Shown in pieces: positions 7,012 to 55,480 of a stretch of 64,000 nt of DNA. The DNA comes from Saccharopolyspora sp. SCSIO 74807. Its GTDB lineage: Bacteria; Actinomycetota; Actinomycetes; Mycobacteriales; Pseudonocardiaceae. The notes under the pieces are model-generated. The model did no database searches. It saw nothing but the letters and a program-made list of their open reading frames with translations, and had not been told where the DNA came from. Location: contig NZ_CP146100.1 in NCBI RefSeq assembly GCF_037023755.1, forward strand, positions 1,304,501-1,368,500, in the 5' to 3' direction. The stretch's first letter is position 1; each line of letters begins with the position of its first letter. Made by a program: the position numbers and the translations under genes.

Positions 7012-7056
7012 AGCGGGCCGTTCGTCCGGTGCACTGGGCGAGCCGGCCCGCTTTTT
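7012..7056. terminator. Rho-independent terminator between otsB-GH15 and lacI
   Basis: A 9-bp perfect stem, AGCGGGCCG (7012-7020) with CGGCCCGCT (7044-7052), is followed by TTTTT at 7052-7056. It ends the plus-strand trehalose operon and lies between convergent genes. The loop segment shares ACTGGGCGA with the 51-nt dispersed element at 54844-54894, so it may be a divergent relative of that family. Confidence 0.75.
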
Positions 7057-15118: not shown

Positions 15119-16552
15119 TCAGAACTGGTAGTACAAGAACGGGCTGAACGCACCGGTGGCCACCAGCAGCCCGGAGTACGCCAGCCCCACCGTCATGACC
15201 CCGATGCGCAGCGCGTTCGCCTGCCTGGTGCGGACGGATTCGAGGAACGGCCCGGTCCCGGTCGTCGCGGGCAGCGCCACCACGACCAACGCGACCAGCA
15301 GGAAGAACATCCGCTGGTGCGTGACCGAAGCGGCGACGATGTCGGTCAGCCCGGACAGGTCGGGCACCAGCATGTGCCCGAGCATCGTTCCCGCGGTGCC
15401 CAGATCAGGTGCCCGGAAGAACACCCACCCGACGACGATCAGCAGCAGCGTCAAGGCGCGGCGGCCCAGCTGCGCCGCCCACTCCTCCGGCGCGCGGTCG
15501 TAACCTGTGGCGCGCTCGACGACCAGCAGCAGCCCGTGGAACAGGCCCCACACCAGGTAGGTCCACGCCGCCCCGTGCCAGAACCCGGTGAGCACGAAGA
15601 CGATCGTCAGGTTCCGGTAGGTGCGGCCCACACCGCGCCGGTTGCCGCCCAGCGGGATGTACACGTAGTCGCGGAACCAGCGGGACAGCGACATGTGCCA
15701 GCGCCGCCAGAACTCGGTGATGGTCACCGAGGAGTACGGGCGCGCGAAGTTCTCCGGGAGCTTGAACCCCAGCATCCGGCCGAGCCCGATCGCCATGTCC
15801 GAGTATCCGGAGAAGTCGAAGTACAGCTGCACCGCGTAGCCGATCGCCCCGAGCCACGCCACCGCGAAGGTCATCTCCGAGCCCGGCGTGGCGAAGCAGG
15901 CGTCGACCATCGGCGCCAGCGTGTCGGCGACCACGACCTTCTTCGTCAGCCCCCACGCGAACCGGGGGAAACCGGCGGCGATGTCGTCCAGCCGGTGCGT
16001 GCGCGGCTGCGGCAGCTGATCGGCGATCTCCCGGTAGCGCACGATCGGACCGGCCACCAGCTGCGGGAACATCGCGATGTAGGTGACGAACGCGACCGGG
16101 TTGCGCAGCGCGGGCCGCTCACCGCGGTACACGTCCACGACGTAGGAGATGTGGTGGAACGTGTAGAACGAGATCCCGATCGGCAGTGCCAGCTGCAGCA
16201 CCGGCAGGTCCGCGCCGAACCAGCCGCCCAGCGTCGCGATCTGCTGCGTGGCGAAGCCCGCGTACTTCCACAGCACCAGGACCAGCAGGTTGAACGAGAC
16301 CGCGCCGATCAGCAGCCACCTGCGGCGCTGCGCGTCCAACCGCCATTCGTCCGGTTCCAGGCCGCGCCCGGCGAAGTAGTTGACCACCACGCACGCCAGC
16401 AGCAGCAACGTCGTGCCGCCCGCGCCGCTGGCGTAGAACACCAGGCTCGCGGCGGCGACGATCCCGTTGCGCGCGGTGCGCGGGGCGAGCAGCACGGCCG
16501 CCAGCACGACCGGCAGGAACAACCACAGGAACAGCGGAGTGGAGAAGTACAT
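15119..16552 (-). CDS. MBOAT-family O-acyltransferase (AlgI-like)
   Basis: A 477-residue polytopic membrane protein of the membrane-bound O-acyltransferase family. The AlgI hallmark blocks are all present: PIGISFYTFHHISYVVDVYRG, FPQLVAGPIVRYREI, QLYFDFSGYSDMAIGLGRML, FWRRWHMSLSRWFRDYVYIP and the catalytic histidine in LTGFWHGAAW. Such proteins pass acyl (usually acetyl) groups across the membrane for modification of extracellular polysaccharide. It heads an operon with a GNAT gene and an AlgX-like partner. No alginate-type biosynthesis genes are in the window, so the acceptor may be a different envelope glycan. Confidence 0.93.
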   Translation of the reverse strand: MYFSTPLFLWLFLPVVLAAVLLAPRTARNGIVAAASLVFYASGAGGTTLLLLACVVVNYFAGRGLEPDEWRLDAQRRRWLLIGAVSFNLLVLVLWKYAGFATQQIATLGGWFGADLPVLQLALPIGISFYTFHHISYVVDVYRGERPALRNPVAFVTYIAMFPQLVAGPIVRYREIADQLPQPRTHRLDDIAAGFPRFAWGLTKKVVVADTLAPMVDACFATPGSEMTFAVAWLGAIGYAVQLYFDFSGYSDMAIGLGRMLGFKLPENFARPYSSVTITEFWRRWHMSLSRWFRDYVYIPLGGNRRGVGRTYRNLTIVFVLTGFWHGAAWTYLVWGLFHGLLLVVERATGYDRAPEEWAAQLGRRALTLLLIVVGWVFFRAPDLGTAGTMLGHMLVPDLSGLTDIVAASVTHQRMFFLLVALVVVALPATTGTGPFLESVRTRQANALRIGVMTVGLAYSGLLVATGAFSPFLYYQF

Positions 16553-16716: not shown

Positions 16717-16767
16717 GAGTGAACGGACCGTTCGACCAATCTATTCGGACCAACAGTCCGTTCGCTC
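16717..16767. repeat. 51-nt stem-loop repeat, copy A
   Basis: A 51-nt element between rlmB and the MBOAT gene, both on the minus strand. The left arm GAGTGAACGGACCGTT faces the right arm AACAGTCCGTTCGCTC. The loop is identical to that of copy B at 26567-26617, and two arm positions differ from perfect pairing. A smaller hairpin, GCTCGT-GA-ACGAGC, follows at 16781-16794. There is no T-run, so it is not a typical terminator. Confidence 0.8.
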
Positions 16768-16843: not shown

Positions 16844-17800
16844 TCAGCGCCTCCGGCGGCGAGCCACCTCGGAGAGCACGACCCCGGCCGCGACCGAGGC
16901 GTTCAACGACTCGACCTCGCTGAACATCGGGATGGACACCGTCTGATCGCAGGTGTCCCGCACCAGCCGGGAAAGCCCGCGGCCCTCCGAGCCGACCACC
17001 ACGACCAGCGGCCGGGTCGCCAGCTCCAGCTCGTCGGAGCTGATGTCGGAGTCCGCGTCCAGCCCGACCACCATCAGGCCCTCGGACTTGAGGTCCTTGA
17101 GCGTGCGGGTGAGGTTCACCGCCATCGCCACCGGCAGCTTCGCCGCCGCCCCGGCGCTGGTGCGCCAGGCGACCGCGGTGATCCCGGCGCTGCGCCGCTG
17201 CGGCAGGATCACCCCGTGCGCGCCGAACGCGGCCGCGGAACGGATCACCGCGCCCAGGTTGCGCGGATCGGTCACCCCGTCCAGCGCGACCAGCAGCGGC
17301 GGCCGGCCGGAATCCACGGCGGTGCGGAGCACGTCGTCGGTGTGCGCGTACTTGTACGGCGGCACCTGCAGCGCCATGCCCTGGTGCAACGCGCCACCGG
17401 TCATCCGGTCCAGCTCGGTGCGCGGCACCTCGACGACCGAGATGCCGCGGTCGCCTGCACGCTGCACCGCTTCTTTCACGCGGTCGTCCGCGTCGATGCC
17501 GTACGCCACGTACAGCCCGGTGGAGGGAACCTCCGCGCGCAGGCATTCCGCGACCGGGTTGCGGCCCGCGATCAGCTCCGGCTGCTCCCGCTGTTCCCGC
17601 TGCTTGCGCTGCTGGAACTCGGACTTCGCCTTGGCCGAGTCGACCCGCTGCTTGGCGGGGTGGCTGACCCGGTTCTTCGCCTTGGGCGTGGGGCCCTTGC
17701 CTTCCAGCCCCTTGCGACGCTGGCCGCCGGAGCCCTTCACCATGCCCTTCTTGGTGCCGGGCTTGCGGGTCGCCCCGCGGCGCTTGTCGTTGCCTGCCAA
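16844..17800 (-). CDS. rlmB: 23S rRNA (guanosine-2'-O-)-methyltransferase
   Basis: A 318-residue SpoU-family (SPOUT) RNA methyltransferase. About 75 basic N-terminal residues rich in Lys and Arg precede the substrate-binding domain ([15 protein letters not shown]). The three SpoU motifs follow: [33 protein letters not shown] and the final [20 protein letters not shown]. The family methylates G2251 (E. coli numbering) in the ribosomal P-loop. The TTG start at 17800 is preceded by GGTGAG overlapping the cysS stop, so the two genes are coupled. The cysS-rlmB order matches Rv3580c-Rv3579c of M. tuberculosis. Confidence 0.93.
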
Positions 17801-25162: not shown

Positions 25163-26539
25163 GTGCCTGCCAAGAACGCCCGCGCGGCCCGCCCCGCCTA
25201 CCGCTGCGCCGACTGCGGCCACGAGGTCACCAAGTGGCTCGGCCGCTGCCCCTCCTGCCACGCCTGGAACACCATCGAGGAGACCGCCGCGGCCCGGCCC
25301 GCCGCCGCGAAGGTCACCGCCGCCGCACCGGCGACCTCCGCGCGCCCGATCGCCGAAGTGGACCTGGACTCGGCCCGGCAGGTGCCGACCGGCATCGCCG
25401 AGCTGGACCGGGTGCTCGGCGGCGGGATCGTGCCTGGCGCGGTGATGCTGCTGGCCGGGGAGCCGGGAGTGGGCAAGTCGACGCTGCTGCTGGAGGTCGC
25501 GCACCGCTGGGCGGCGGCCGGTTCGGGCGGCCCTTCGCTGTACGTCACGGGTGAGGAATCGGCGGGCCAGGTGCGGTTGCGCGCGGAGCGCACCGACTCG
25601 CTGCACCCCGAGCTCTACCTCGGTTCGGAGGCCGACCTCGGAGCCGTGCTCGGGCACGTGGACGCCATCCGCCCCGGACTGCTGATCATCGACTCGGTGC
25701 AGACCGTGCAGTCGCCGGACGTGGACGGCACGCCGGGCGGGGTCACCCAGGTCCGCGCGGTCACCTCCGGCCTGGTCGCGCTGGCCAAGGAACGCGGGCT
25801 GCCGGTGGTGCTGGTCGGGCACGTGACCAAGGACGGCGCGGTGGCGGGACCGCGCGCGCTGGAACACCTGGTGGACGTGGTGCTCAACTTCGAGGGCGAC
25901 CGGCATTCGTCGCTGCGGATGCTGCGCGGAATCAAGAACCGTTTTGGCCCGGCCGACGAGGTCGGCTGCTTCGAGCAGCGCGACGACGGGATCGCCGAGG
26001 TGGCCGATCCCTCCGGGTTGTTCCTGAACCGCCAGGAGGCTGCGGTCCCGGGAACCGCGGTGACGGTCATGGTCGAGGGCAAGCGCCCGCTGCTGGCGGA
26101 GGTGCAGGCGCTGGTCGCGCCGACCCAGATGCAGATCCCGCGCCGGGCGGTGAGCGGGCTGGACTCGGCGCGGGTGTCGATGGCGCTGGCGGTGCTGGAA
26201 AAGCGCGGCCGGGTCCGCACCGGCGAGAAGGAGGTGTTCGCGGCCACCGTCGGCGGCATGAAGGTCACCGAGCCCGCCGCGGACCTGGCGGTGGCGCTGG
26301 CCATCGCATCGTCGGCCATGGACGTTCCGCTGCCGCCGAACATGGTGGTGGTCGGCGAGGTCGGGCTGGCCGGGGAGATCCGCCGGGTGAACGCGGTGGG
26401 CAGGCGGCTCGCGGAGGCGCAGCGGCTGGGTTTCGACCGCGCGCTGGTGCCGCCGGATTCCGGCAGGCTCCCCTCCGGGATCAAGGCCACCGTCGTGCCC
26501 GACCTGCAAACCGCCCTCAAGTCGCTGCGCTCGAACTGA
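25163..26539 (+). CDS. radA: DNA repair protein RadA (branch-migration ATPase)
   Basis: A 458-residue RecA-like protein. The N-terminal zinc finger is C-x2-C-x11-C-x2-C (CADCGHEVTKWLGRCPSC), followed by the ATPase with Walker A GEPGVGKST, Walker B LLIIDSVQTVQ and the RadA-specific KNRFG motif, then a C-terminal Lon-protease-like domain lacking protease function (PPNMVVVGEVGLAGEIRRVN). RadA processes recombination intermediates. In M. tuberculosis disA follows radA immediately; here the next gene is convergent and only 91 bp away, with a 51-nt stem-loop between. Confidence 0.96.
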   Translation: MPAKNARAARPAYRCADCGHEVTKWLGRCPSCHAWNTIEETAAARPAAAKVTAAAPATSARPIAEVDLDSARQVPTGIAELDRVLGGGIVPGAVMLLAGEPGVGKSTLLLEVAHRWAAAGSGGPSLYVTGEESAGQVRLRAERTDSLHPELYLGSEADLGAVLGHVDAIRPGLLIIDSVQTVQSPDVDGTPGGVTQVRAVTSGLVALAKERGLPVVLVGHVTKDGAVAGPRALEHLVDVVLNFEGDRHSSLRMLRGIKNRFGPADEVGCFEQRDDGIAEVADPSGLFLNRQEAAVPGTAVTVMVEGKRPLLAEVQALVAPTQMQIPRRAVSGLDSARVSMALAVLEKRGRVRTGEKEVFAATVGGMKVTEPAADLAVALAIASSAMDVPLPPNMVVVGEVGLAGEIRRVNAVGRRLAEAQRLGFDRALVPPDSGRLPSGIKATVVPDLQTALKSLRSN

Positions 26540-26566: not shown

Positions 26567-26617
26567 GGGTGAACGGACCGTTCGACCAATCTATTCGGAC
26601 CAACGGTCCGTTCACCC
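26567..26617. repeat. 51-nt stem-loop repeat, copy B (perfect arms)
   Basis: Arms GGGTGAACGGACCGTT (26567-26582) and AACGGTCCGTTCACCC (26602-26617) form a perfect 16-bp inverted repeat with a 19-nt loop. It lies between the convergent genes radA and 26631-27239. The loop and inner arms are the same as in copy A (16717-16767), differing at only a few positions in total. Confidence 0.85.
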
Positions 26618-26630
26618 ACGATGAACGGGG

Positions 26631-27239
26631 TCAGGTGAGGCGGAACGGGGTTGGCTGGCTGATGAGGCCGCCCAGGCGGGCGCCGACTACGTAGTCGCCC
26701 GCGGGAGCGGTCTCGCGCTTGGCGGCGCACTGCTCGGGCGATGCTTCCGGGGTGGAGGCGACGCCGGTCCATTCGAGTTCGTTGCGGACGGATTCACCGG
26801 GGGCCAGCACCGGCATCTCGTTGCTGGATTCGGTCTGGCAGTCGTTGCTCGACCAGAAGCGCTTGCCGTCCGCAGTGGACACCACGACCTCGCGCAGCAT
26901 CCGGCCGGTGTCCCGGACGCAGTCCACCGGGCCGGTGTTGGTGATGACCATGCGCAGCCCGACCGGTTCGCCTGCCGGGATCTCCGGGCGCACCGGCTCC
27001 GCGGTGATCCGCAGGTCCCGGTCGCCGCACGCCGGTGGAGCCGCGGGTGGCGCGGCGGCCTGCGGCGGCGGGGCACCCCCGTGCGTTCCGGCTTGCTGCG
27101 ATGCTGCCGGGACGAGCGCTCCGGCCAGCGCGATCACGCCCCACACCGCGAGAGCGATCGCCAGCAGGACCGCACCGAACGCCACCGCTCGGCGGCGCCA
27201 GTACACCTCGGGGCGAAGCGGTCCGATGGGATCCAGCAC
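26631..27239 (-). CDS. Membrane-anchored secreted protein (Rv3587c-like), function unknown
   Basis: A 202-residue protein with a cytoplasmic N-terminus (VLDPIGPLRPEVYWRRR), one transmembrane helix (AVAFGAVLLAIALAVWGVIA), a Pro/Ala-rich linker and an extracellular beta-domain (RITAEPVRPEIPAGEPVGLR, ITNTGPVDCVRDTG). Four cysteines (at about 75, 111, 138 and 171) may form disulfides. By position it corresponds to the membrane protein Rv3587c downstream of radA-disA. GTG 27239 is preceded by TACTGT (27251-27246) with a 6-nt gap, suggesting a leaderless start. Confidence 0.75.
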   Translation of the reverse strand: MLDPIGPLRPEVYWRRRAVAFGAVLLAIALAVWGVIALAGALVPAASQQAGTHGGAPPPQAAAPPAAPPACGDRDLRITAEPVRPEIPAGEPVGLRMVITNTGPVDCVRDTGRMLREVVVSTADGKRFWSSNDCQTESSNEMPVLAPGESVRNELEWTGVASTPEASPEQCAAKRETAPAGDYVVGARLGGLISQPTPFRLT

Positions 27240-36880: not shown

Positions 36881-37618
36881 ATGCACTCGACCGCACTGGC
36901 CGCCGCGCCCGCCGAGCCGACCGGGTTCACCGCCTGGGTCATCGGCGTGATGGAAACTCTCGGCGGCCCCGGCGCCGGCCTGATCATCGCGATCGAGAAC
37001 CTGTTCCCGCCGATCCCCAGCGAACTCATCCTGCCGCTGGCCGGGTTCACCGCCAGCCAGGGCAACATGAACATCTTCGCGGCGGTGCTGTGGACGACGG
37101 CCGGATCGCTGCTCGGCGCGCTCGCGCTGTACTGGCTCGGCCACGCGCTCGGCAGGGAGCGGATGCACCGGATCGCGGCGAAGATGCCGCTGGTCAAGCT
37201 CTCCGACGTGGACCGCACCGAGGCGTGGTTCGGCAAGCACGGCGTGAAGGCGGTGTTCTTCGGCCGGATGATCCCGCTGTTCCGCAGCTTCATCTCGCTG
37301 CCCGCAGGGGTGGAGAAGATGCCGCTGCCCACGTTCGTGCTGTTCACCAGCCTCGGCAGCCTGATCTGGAACACCGTGTTCGTGGTGGCGGGCTACCTGC
37401 TCGGGCAGAACTGGTACCTCGTCGAGCAGTACGCGGGCATCCTCTCCAAGGTCGTCCTGGCCGTGGTCGCACTGGCCATCGCCTACTTCGTGATCTCCCG
37501 CGTCCGGCAAACCCGCCGCGAGCGCGACGAGGCGGACGATGCGGATGCCCCCACCGACCAGTTCCCCCGCGTCACCCACCCCGAAAGCCCCACCGAACGC
37601 CTCCCCCGCATCCGCTGA
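36881..37618 (+). CDS. DedA-family membrane protein
   Basis: A 245-residue protein with about five hydrophobic segments. The DedA motifs are IENLFPPIPSELILPLAG (E-x4-P-x-P-x-E) and FFGRMIPLFRSFISLPAGVE (G-R-x2-P-x3-R). The C-terminal tail is charged and likely cytoplasmic. DedA proteins are implicated in lipid-carrier (undecaprenyl-phosphate or phosphatidylethanolamine) flipping and membrane homeostasis. GGAG at 36871-36874 precedes the ATG by 6 nt. A 51-nt stem-loop (37634-37684) follows directly. Confidence 0.92.
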   Translation: MHSTALAAAPAEPTGFTAWVIGVMETLGGPGAGLIIAIENLFPPIPSELILPLAGFTASQGNMNIFAAVLWTTAGSLLGALALYWLGHALGRERMHRIAAKMPLVKLSDVDRTEAWFGKHGVKAVFFGRMIPLFRSFISLPAGVEKMPLPTFVLFTSLGSLIWNTVFVVAGYLLGQNWYLVEQYAGILSKVVLAVVALAIAYFVISRVRQTRRERDEADDADAPTDQFPRVTHPESPTERLPRIR

Positions 37619-37633: not shown

Positions 37634-37684
37634 GAGTGAACGACCTGTTCGCCCCATCCAGCAGGGCCAGCGGTCCGTTCGCTC
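37634..37684. repeat. 51-nt stem-loop repeat, copy C
   Basis: Located between DedA and a convergent DUF397 gene, 15 bp after the DedA stop. The outer arms GAGTGAACG and CGGTCCGTTCGCTC are kept, with the middle diverged (CCTGTTCGCCCCATCCAGCA). The length is the same 51 nt as the other copies. Confidence 0.7.
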
Positions 37685-37778: not shown

Positions 37779-37973
37779 TCAGTGCTGTGCCCGCCCCGCC
37801 ACCTCGCCGAGGGAACGCGCCCACGAAGCGTGCTCCACACGCACCTGGCCGCCCGCAGGGTCCTTCGAGTCGCGCACCGACACACCGCGCTCGGTTAACC
37901 GCACCTCGACACAAGCGTCGCTGTTCGCCGCGCTCCGACTGCTCTTGAACCAGCCGGTGTCGTGGTTGATCAT
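37779..37973 (-). CDS. DUF397 domain protein
   Basis: A 64-residue DUF397 protein with the family landmarks GWFKSSRSAANSDACVEVRL (W-x-K-S-S-x-S, CVEV) and VSVRDSKDPAGGQVRVEHASW. Such small proteins are coded next to XRE/DUF5753 regulators in Streptomyces and Pseudonocardiaceae and act with them, as in BldB-like and WhiJ-like pairs. It is 29 bp downstream of a second DUF397 gene, with which it shares over half its residues, suggesting tandem duplication. Confidence 0.9.
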   Translation of the reverse strand: MINHDTGWFKSSRSAANSDACVEVRLTERGVSVRDSKDPAGGQVRVEHASWARSLGEVAGRAQH

Positions 37974-53788: not shown

Positions 53789-53804
53789 GCGGAAGGTGAC
53801 CGGC

Positions 53805-54752
53805 GTGGACGACGACCAGCGCTACAGCATCGGAGAGCTCAGCCGCCGCACGGGCCTGAGCGCCAAGACGATCCGGTTCTACTCCGACGAGGGCCTGGTC
53901 CCGCCCATCGACCGCACCTCCGCGGGCCACCGCCGCTACGACGTGACCGCGATGGCCCGGCTCGAGCTGGTGCGCACGTTGCGCGACCTCGGTGCCGGTC
54001 TCGGCGAGGTACGCCGCGTGCTGGCCGCCGAGACGGATCTGCCGTCGCTGGCGCAGCGGCAGCTTCAGCTGGTGGAGGAGCAGTTGCGGCGGCTGCGGAC
54101 GCGGCGGGCCGTGCTGCGCGCGGTCGTCCGGGAGCAGAAGACGACCGAAGAGGTGAGGCTCATGCACAAGCTCGCGCAGATGTCGGACGGCGAGCGCGAC
54201 CGGCTGATCGACGAGTTCTGGGACTACACGATCAGCGGGCTGGACATCGACGAGGAATTCGCCGAGTGGATGCGTTCGGCGAAACCCCGGTTGCCGGACG
54301 ACCCGAATCCCGCGCAGGTCGAAGCGTGGGTGGAACTGGCCGAGCTGATCAACGACCAGAGCTTCCGCGCCGCGGTGCGGGAGATGTGGCGCCGGCAGGC
54401 CGAGCGGATGGCGGCGGGCGACGAGGTTCCCGTGCAGACCCCGGACCAGGCGGCGCAGTGGTGGTCGCTGCACGACGACGTCAACGCGGCCGAGCAGGCG
54501 GGCACGGCGCCGGACTCGGCTCGTGGCCGGGAGCTAGCCGAGCGGGCCGCCCGGACCTACGCCGAGCAGCTCGGCACCGCCGACTCGCCGCAGGTCCGCG
54601 GCGAGCTGGCGGAGTTCCTGGCGCAGCCGGTCGACGAGCGGATGTCGCGCTACTGGGAGCTGCTGGCGATCATCAACGACTGGCCCGCGCACCCGACCAG
54701 GCAGGCCGGGATGCACTGGCTCGCCGCCGCGGTGCGCGGCACGCTGGATTGA
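53805..54752 (+). CDS. MerR-family transcriptional regulator
   Basis: A 315-residue regulator. The N-terminal winged helix is YSIGELSRRTGLSAKTIRFY, followed by SDEGLVPPIDRTSAGHRRYD, and a coiled-coil linker (about 80-115). A long C-terminal helical domain (about 125-315, HKLAQMSDGERDRLIDEFWD) has no recognised ligand motif, as in other large actinobacterial MerR proteins that bind drugs or amphipathic molecules. The GTG start follows a palindromic site probably used for autoregulation. No obvious target gene lies beside it. It is convergent with folK, and a 51-nt stem-loop lies between. Confidence 0.9.
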   Translation: MDDDQRYSIGELSRRTGLSAKTIRFYSDEGLVPPIDRTSAGHRRYDVTAMARLELVRTLRDLGAGLGEVRRVLAAETDLPSLAQRQLQLVEEQLRRLRTRRAVLRAVVREQKTTEEVRLMHKLAQMSDGERDRLIDEFWDYTISGLDIDEEFAEWMRSAKPRLPDDPNPAQVEAWVELAELINDQSFRAAVREMWRRQAERMAAGDEVPVQTPDQAAQWWSLHDDVNAAEQAGTAPDSARGRELAERAARTYAEQLGTADSPQVRGELAEFLAQPVDERMSRYWELLAIINDWPAHPTRQAGMHWLAAAVRGTLD

Positions 54753-54843
54753 TCCACTCTGGACTGATCCCTGCTGAGCCTGATCCGCGCTCGCCCTCCC
54801 GCCGACACGCCCGCCCACCCGCCGAACGGTGCACTTCCACCCG

Positions 54844-54894
54844 GAGTGAACGACCTCTTCGCCCTACAAGACTGGGCGAACGGTCCGTTCACTC
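54844..54894. repeat. 51-nt stem-loop repeat, copy D
   Basis: Located between the convergent MerR and folK genes. Arms GAGTGAACG and CGAACGGTCCGTTCACTC are kept, and the middle is CCTCTTCGCCCTACAAGA. It shares GAGTGAACGACCT and TTCGCCC with copy C and the same right arm as copy B. Exact length 51 nt. Confidence 0.75.
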
Positions 54895-54976
54895 ATTGCG
54901 GAAATCGCAGCAGAGCGCCGGTTTCCGGGCGTGTCGGCGCAGCGCGGAGCTCGGATCGGAGCGAACAGGCGGTTCT

Positions 54977-55480
54977 TCAGCGCGGAATGCGCAGCGCGAG
55001 GTCCGGGCGGGCACGCACTGCTTCGAGGTCGGCAGCGGGCAAGGCATCGCGCAGCGCCGCGACCGGACCGCGCCCGGGCAGCACCGCCTCCGGCTCGACC
55101 GCGAGCCACGGGATCAGCACCGTCGCCCGGCTCGGCGTTCCGGGATGCGGCAGCAGCAGGTCCGGGTGCTCGCTGCGCACCCCGTCCACGGCGACGACGT
55201 CGACGTCCAGCGTGCGCGGACCCCAGCGCTGCTCACGGATCCGTTCCGCAGCCCGTTCCAGCTCTTGAGCGCGCCGCAGCCAACCCCATTCGTCCACATC
55301 GGACGACTGCACCACGAGCACCGCGTTGAGGAAGTCCGGCTGATCGGTCACGCCCCACGGTTCGGTCTCGAACACCGGTGAGGCCGCCACCAGGACGTCG
55401 GCGAACCCGTCCACGGCCAGCTGCAGGAAACCCAGCCGGTCCCCCAGATTCGACCCGAGCGAGAGCACCGCCCTGCTCAT
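54977..55480 (-). CDS. folK: 2-amino-4-hydroxy-6-hydroxymethyldihydropteridine diphosphokinase
   Basis: A 167-residue HPPK enzyme of folate synthesis. Family motifs are LSLGSNLGDRLGFLQLAVD, SPVFETEPWGVTDQPDFLNA, the signature RWGPRTLDVDVVAVDGV and LLLPHPGTPSRATVLIPW. ATG 55480 has GGGAGGG 5 nt ahead; GTG 55486 is an alternative. It closes the folE-folP-folB-folK cluster after a 124-bp gap. Confidence 0.95.
   Translation of the reverse strand: MSRAVLSLGSNLGDRLGFLQLAVDGFADVLVAASPVFETEPWGVTDQPDFLNAVLVVQSSDVDEWGWLRRAQELERAAERIREQRWGPRTLDVDVVAVDGVRSEHPDLLLPHPGTPSRATVLIPWLAVEPEAVLPGRGPVAALRDALPAADLEAVRARPDLALRIPR

Follow-up and report, generated by a model that had tools for sequence, protein, structure and literature searches.

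What is a palindrome of fixed length doing four times within 64 kb of a bacterial chromosome? The question is raised by a stretch of the genome of Saccharopolyspora sp. SCSIO 74807 (one contig of 6,688,468 bases, G000 below). The stretch covers positions 1,304,501-1,368,500, and all 64,000 nt of it are called the window here. The original prediction described a stem-loop in four copies and gave the right coordinates, all four being exactly 51 nt long. Copy A (16717..16767, plus strand) sits between two minus-strand genes (15119-16552 and 16844-17800). The others occupy gaps between convergent genes: copy B (26567..26617, plus) between 25163-26539 on the plus strand and 26631-27239 on the minus strand, copy C (37634..37684, plus) between 36881-37618 (plus) and 37779-37973 (minus, a weak gene call), and copy D (54844..54894, minus by the strand of the family consensus) between 53796-54752 (plus) and 54977-55480 (minus). 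This agrees with the predicted three of four in convergent gaps, with A between co-directional genes. Gene positions here and throughout are those of our own codon-based gene finder, unchecked against annotation. Folding confirms the perfect 16-bp arms of copy B, and the two copies said to share an identical loop are A and B.

A T-run hairpin at 7012..7056 (plus strand) had been proposed as a looser relative. It does lie in a convergent gap, as stated, but it falls below the family score threshold and, outside the family, resembles an intrinsic terminator of the usual kind. Elsewhere in the window, a tRNA gene occupies 861-933 on the minus strand.

The reading developed below treats the 51-bp palindrome as the repeating unit of a short-repeat family of REP/BIME-like type. 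Among the genomes searched, this family is confined to the Saccharopolyspora lineage; it would spread by copying and be bound by protein in a phased manner. We lean towards it, if only slightly past an even chance.

Size of the Family

The window alone holds nine matches to GTGAACGNNCNNTTCG, a pattern built from the copies, at ≤1 mismatch, against 0.43 expected in shuffles. Across the whole genome, a degenerate 51-mer with ≤3 mismatches finds 85 forward and 80 reverse matches, many palindromic copies being counted on both strands, and the reversed control finds 0; copy A matches this 51-mer with 0 mismatches. A position-specific scan of the window and 120 tiles of 20 kb across the genome (2.43 Mb, 36% of the genome) gave 80 hits, 75 of them scoring >45, with a reversed-sequence maximum of 7.8. 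Because 75 copies in 2.43 Mb is about 31 per Mb, the 6.69-Mb genome is expected by extrapolation to hold about 200. The prediction was of tens to hundreds of copies, chiefly between genes and favoring convergent ones, and this is what is seen, 72 of 74 copies being intergenic. The copy number also passes the mark of more than about 100 intergenic palindromes set for REP families, by the same extrapolation from 75 in 2.43 Mb.

In a sequence-blind hairpin scan over lengths 36-89, 51 nt is the most frequent length with 40 hits, compared with 10-13 at 49, 50, 52, and 53 and ≤33 elsewhere. By eye, 25 of the 40 belong to the family; of the rest, 11 are other hairpins and 4 are runs of N. The runs of N in this genome (L163 from 3312501 and L207 from 6290001) give four spurious hairpin hits at each length looked at.

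Genomic Context

Where do the copies lie? Context was counted for 74 of the 75 copies, copy D being excluded because of tile overlap. There are 37 in convergent gaps, 27 between co-directional genes, 8 between divergent genes, 1 within a gene and 1 unplaced. Of all intergenic bases, 15% belong to convergent gaps, yet these hold 37/74 copies. With one count per locus, convergent gaps account for 31 of the 59 intergenic loci (p about 1e-11 when judged by bases and 1e-8 by gap number). Convergent or co-directional placement, the location expected of REPs, accounts for 64/74 copies. The copies also lie close to gene ends. For the 37 convergent copies the median distance to the nearest stop is 13 nt, and in 28 it is ≤30 nt. 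In 7 of the 37, the flanking gene runs 6 nt into the core and takes its stop codon from the TGA at core positions 4-6.

On a larger scale, no G000 copy with ≤2 mismatches lies between 4.59 and 5.54 Mb among the matches listed, a stretch of ~950 kb around the point opposite dnaA (dnaA is at 1.71 Mb). None was found in 220 kb of G000 tiles from 4.5-5.5 Mb. Avoidance of the terminus as a rule was dropped, since two relatives of other species (G001 and G003) carry copies near their own point opposite dnaA. Among the matches listed, copies or pairs cluster at 690-918 kb in G001, 5.57-5.87 Mb in G003, 5.22-5.42 Mb in a further relative (G004) and 2.79-2.94 Mb in G000. In all four species these clusters lie to the same side of dnaA, relative to the window, at a distance of ~0.9-1.3 Mb. 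A second dense stretch of listed copies in G000 lies at 5.54-5.86 Mb.

Distribution and Turnover

The family is found in all five species of the genus that were searched, G000 included, and in 0/55 other genomes of the family and order (both at ≤3 mismatches to the G000 consensus). A search of 84,980 species genomes with the exact core pattern, from which records of G000 itself or near it were possibly excluded, returned 47 stretches, all from NFXS83 and HNM0986. NFXS83 is the probable name of G002, a relative of another species. HNM0986 is likewise the probable name of G060, a fragmented genome labelled as the same species as G000; excerpts of PMC11599206 describe HNM0986 as the type strain of S. 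galaxeae. The matches listed in relatives have the arms in common, whereas the inner part is different and more symmetric. The consensus is species-specific, and so, mostly, is the placement.

Comparison of the two strains reveals no movement. Presence was defined as a copy within 200 nt, and part of the HNM0986 set was chosen for holding copies. By this measure all 36 testable HNM0986 copies (of 49) have a counterpart in G000, and no insertion difference is found among them. At one of the 36 (L227) the G000 copy is, by eye, present but short by two bases; what the scan picked up there was the adjacent copy. All four window copies are present in HNM0986. The picture between species is the reverse. 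Of the 19 testable NFXS83 copies (of 111), 17 are missing from G000, that is, 8 of 9 loci, and the two at the remaining locus are shared. Placement therefore turns over. Whole NFXS83 arrays of 3-4 copies (L039, L068, and L076) face G000 sites with no copy. Likewise, none of the window copies was located at the corresponding positions in four relatives, which have copies elsewhere in the region. No target duplication was seen by eye; intergenic DNA is too diverged between species for an exact empty site or a target duplication to be demonstrable.

Between the strains, differences affect 9/1932 core sites versus 38/2950 sites in the nearest flanks (p=0.004). Against all intergenic DNA the difference gives p=0.13, and the core rate equals that of coding DNA (560/123905). 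Purifying selection on the cores is thus only suggested, because the compared copies were also chosen by pattern match. A separate observation concerns one pair of neighbours, G000 5848259 and 5848379 versus G060 C33:77937 and 78057, in which both members show the same loop difference, as if one member had been copied to the other.

Transposase and Parent Element

If copies spread, what moves them? REPs suggest a REP-associated tyrosine transposase, and the original prediction had proposed looking for one. The family of these Y1 (RAYT-type) transposases, PF01797, was searched in G000 and the four carrier relatives. None of the four relatives has a match. Two such genes are present in G000 (G000:C1:2447842 and 4665956). 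The transposase is evidently not needed, and a RAYT as a requirement was rejected, with four of five carrier species having no PF01797 match.

Scanning the sampled tiles (36% of the genome) for the motif and for half-sites also turned up no parent transposon with the ends of the family. These scans yield 17 sites beyond the listed copies; most are shortened or degraded relatives, and two are parts of copy D. Between cores 300-2600 bp apart, no transposase-like gene was recognized by look, judged on the first 60 residues only.

Helical Phasing of Neighboring Copies

The distance between neighboring copies is periodic near 11.5 bp with a similar phase in all five species. Significance was judged against a null of uniform jitter of ≤6 bp, taking the maximum over periods 9-13.5. 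In G000 (n=25) the best period is 11.6 bp, and 0 of 3000 null sets were as strong (phase 5.6, this and the following phases being given at 11.5). The best period is 11.5 in NFXS83 (n=55, p=0.003, phase 4.3), 11.4 in G001 (n=60, p=0.0003, phase 3.7), 11.2 in G003 (n=47, 0/3000, phase 3.1) and 11.7 in G004 (n=40, p=0.001, phase 5.5). Pooling all 227 spacings gives a best period of 11.5 (R=0.40, 0/3000). The period was first noticed in G000 and NFXS83 and then tried in G001. G003 and G004 are replicates for which period and phase were set beforehand, some of the G003 spacings being already known.

Spacings cluster near 64, 74, 86, 96, 108, 119, and 133 nt and are sparse between. It follows that the spacer (spacing minus 51) lies near n x 11.4 bp, with n from 1 to 7. 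A two-ended pattern, with full cores unverified, supplied the spacings of G001, G003, and G004. G001 contributes 60 among 63 matches listed, of 94-95, and G003 contributes 47 among 51 listed, of 54-55. Spacers that appeared repeated by eye were dropped (three in G001 and four in G003), as were three G004 matches that contain an inner core (inner spacings 61-65 by eye). Three NFXS83 spacings >170 nt were left out, together with one G000 spacing (161) beyond the tested range of 60-145.

Could related spacers create the period? Some spacers that resemble one another are still among those used for G001 and G003, and the similarity test covers the 85 spacers with sequence. With one spacer taken from each of the 77 similarity clusters of these 85, the phasing holds in 20/20 draws (R 0.41-0.43). 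As a control, 103 core-to-stop distances show no such period (R=0.06 at 11.5). Neighbors in the same orientation do show it (n=52), and those in opposite orientation are too few to do so (n=12, p=0.13). Most pairs are in fact head-to-tail (21/22 in G000 and 44/58 in NFXS83). Non-adjacent pairs 150-400 bp apart show no period (n=31, p=0.64); scatter accumulated over two steps would, however, smear one out.

Fits to in vivo looping in E. coli, as given in excerpts of PMC1762422, put the helical repeat at 11.60, 11.08, and, in the absence of HU, 10.95 bp per turn, and the excess of 11.60 over 10.5 is attributed there to negative supercoiling. The simplest account of a near-helical period that five species share, and that survives the removal of similar spacers, is a putative protein in contact with two copies from the same side of the helix.

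Arms, Flanks, and RNA Structure

The least variable parts of the G000 copies are mostly the outer arms. Each consensus arm holds a 13-bp palindrome, GAACGG-A-CCGTTC in its commonest form, and each core arm has what we take to be a resemblance to a TetR-type operator.

A stem that works as RNA would be expected to show compensatory changes, and these had been predicted. They were not seen. Among 75 G000 copies there is no excess of complementary pairing at variable pairs except at one weak pair (2-50, 88% vs 84%, p=0.045), the most variable pairs being at or below chance; Watson-Crick pairing is below expectation at pairs 11-41 (48% vs 56%) and 13-39 (37% vs 51%). Among 108 distinct NFXS83 copies there is none. 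The hairpin is thus not visibly maintained as an RNA, because the variable stem pairs lack a complementary excess, and selection on RNA structure was rejected for want of compensation. No T-run follows the core on its 3' side, T counts being 2 to 19 of 75 at the 7 following positions. Rfam at gathering scores finds only tRNA in the window and five loci.

Some copies are embedded in a larger symmetric form. A 13-nt motif, CGGGYGTGTCGGC (≤2 mismatches), flanks the core at a distance of 29-31 nt, on one side or both in 15 of 75 G000 copies and on both in 5, one of which is copy D. Over 48 offsets tried, 20 of 21 hits fall at just three, 29-31 nt. Around copy D the motif CGGGCGTGTCGGC occurs twice, at 54801..54813 (minus strand, 30 nt from copy D) and at 54926..54938 (plus strand, 31 nt away), so that the two bound a symmetric element of 138 bp. 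The motif (≤2 mismatches) was not found at 60/75 G000 copies, nor its exact form in NFXS83 flanks. A divergent subfamily of the same 51-nt length has arms such as GAGTGAAGG instead of GAGTGAACGG (G000 201309, 1876448, and 6656228, at L098, L133, and L213), and some 30 nt beyond the copy at 1876448 comes an outer arm that matches.

Competing Explanations

The original prediction offered three possible natures: a REP-like mobile element, a bidirectional terminator family and a protein-binding site. The first is supported, as is the third through the phasing of neighbors, but a pure bidirectional terminator finds no support as the full explanation. Suppose that the palindromes are bidirectional terminators or mRNA 3'-end hairpins, working as RNA at convergent gene ends. 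The hairpins are strong, the bias is convergent, and 28 of the 37 convergent copies lie ≤30 nt from a stop codon (median 13). Hairpins of other sequence also stand, by eye, at the place matching copy D in G001, G003, and G004, and at one NFXS83 site as it appears in G000 (L177 near 2745). However, no T-run follows the core and the arms are uncompensated beyond the one weak G000 pair. Moreover, RNA hairpins would not predict helically phased neighbors. The idea that copies replace terminators was discarded, since intrinsic-terminator-like hairpins occur alike in convergent gaps with a copy (5/31) and in those with none (41/215; shuffled, 3 and 16). An RNA role as the main explanation is unlikely. 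A relative of this idea holds that gene conversion among copies has replaced the sequence of ordinary terminators and made it uniform, with no transposition. The pair at G000 5848259/5848379, with the same loop difference in both copies relative to G060, speaks for it, as do the hairpins at some matching sites in relatives. Nevertheless, the NFXS83 arrays of 3-4 copies where G000 has none do not fit, and phased spacing is not predicted; conversion as the source of the family is very improbable.

What if the family is instead a purely selfish miniature transposon with no host function? The phasing would then be the geometry of an insertion complex landing beside an existing copy. Lineage-specific placement, arrays, species-specific inner parts and the rare larger form with outer inverted motifs on both sides (5/75) are all in keeping with this. 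Yet none of the four carrier relatives has a PF01797 match, a transposon with these ends is not seen in the sampled 36% of the genome, and no target duplication is seen. On this evidence we regard pure selfishness as doubtful.

In the preferred reading, a REP/BIME-like family that is copied and bound, new copies would be laid down by copying at 3' positions that tolerate them. A putative protein would bind the palindrome as double-stranded DNA and contact its neighbor on the same helical face. As to the origin of the phasing, this protein may steer each new copy to an in-phase site, or selection for joint binding may favor arrays that are in phase. Terminating transcription or shielding mRNA ends may be a by-product of the hairpin. 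The phasing points to a protein that acts on double-stranded DNA, either a phased-insertion machine or an architectural reader of arrays. A more ambitious version is a genus-specific chromosome-organizing system of ~200 sites, many of them in phased arrays, with one dedicated putative binding protein that contacts same-face neighbors and acts at the ends of transcription units, where supercoils build up. We consider this version unlikely. Such a chromosome-organizing protein may also set where new copies land.

Comparison with Known Systems

The nearest known systems are the REP and BIME repeats. These are high-copy intergenic palindromes near 3' ends, mostly between convergent or co-directional genes; some supply the stop codon of the flanking gene, they occur as singles, dimers, and clusters, and BIMEs bind gyrase and, between REPs, IHF (excerpts of PMC3733652 and PMC2817692). 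The Saccharopolyspora copies are likewise intergenic, near 3' ends, grouped, and in some cases the source of a stop codon. BIMEs are defined by regular spacing and alternating orientation. Here the spacing is phased and the orientation mostly head-to-tail. This also differs from GTAG repeats, whose head-to-tail pairs are absent or under-represented in most genomes (excerpts of PMC3733652), whereas those of Saccharopolyspora are mostly of this kind (21/22 and 44/58) and helically phased. Unlike GTAG/CGTC REPs, the family has no unpaired tag by base counts in the flanks of 75 copies, the GTGA at core positions 3-6 being stem-paired. The core is 51 bp, compared with 20-40 bp for a REP. RAYT-associated REPs have a Y1 (PF01797) transposase gene flanked by copies, and PF01797 matches are found in 0/4 carrier relatives here. 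Because tag, size, and RAYT all fall outside the REP definition, the family is filed as REP-like, neither tagged nor RAYT-linked. REPINs (paired-REP miniature mobile DNA; PMC3116915) are similar in having two inverted halves in one hairpin and in being amplified within a genome. They differ in size, 51 bp here versus 89-bp repeats that end in inverted Pflu1 REPs (excerpts of PMC2817692), and four of the five Saccharopolyspora carrier species have no RAYT.

Two other kinds of system share single features with the family. A MITE has terminal inverted repeats and a target-site duplication. Five G000 copies recall this through their 13-nt outer inverted motifs ~30 nt from the core, whereas 60/75 copies have no outer motif, NFXS83 flanks have no exact one, and neither duplication nor parent transposon is seen. 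SlmA and Noc each bind, as one DNA-binding protein, many palindromic chromosomal sites. Many palindromic sites are spread over the Saccharopolyspora chromosome too, although arrays and phasing are not known to be features of those systems.

A literature search found nothing on repetitive extragenic palindromes of Saccharopolyspora or on REP/RAYT in Actinobacteria, and excerpts of PMC3610266, PMC2267715, and PMC11599206 contain no palindromic intergenic repeat family of this genus. The present family adds REP-like amplification in an actinobacterial genus, in which four of five species have no detectable Y1 (RAYT-type) transposase. Readings of REP-like repeats have ranged over RNA hairpins, selfish DNA and protein sites, and sequence alone offers little to choose among them. 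What is new here is the helically phased spacing of neighbors in a REP/BIME-like family. At 11.5 bp, within the range of helical repeats in E. coli in vivo, this signal separates a mechanism that works on double-stranded DNA from one that works on RNA.
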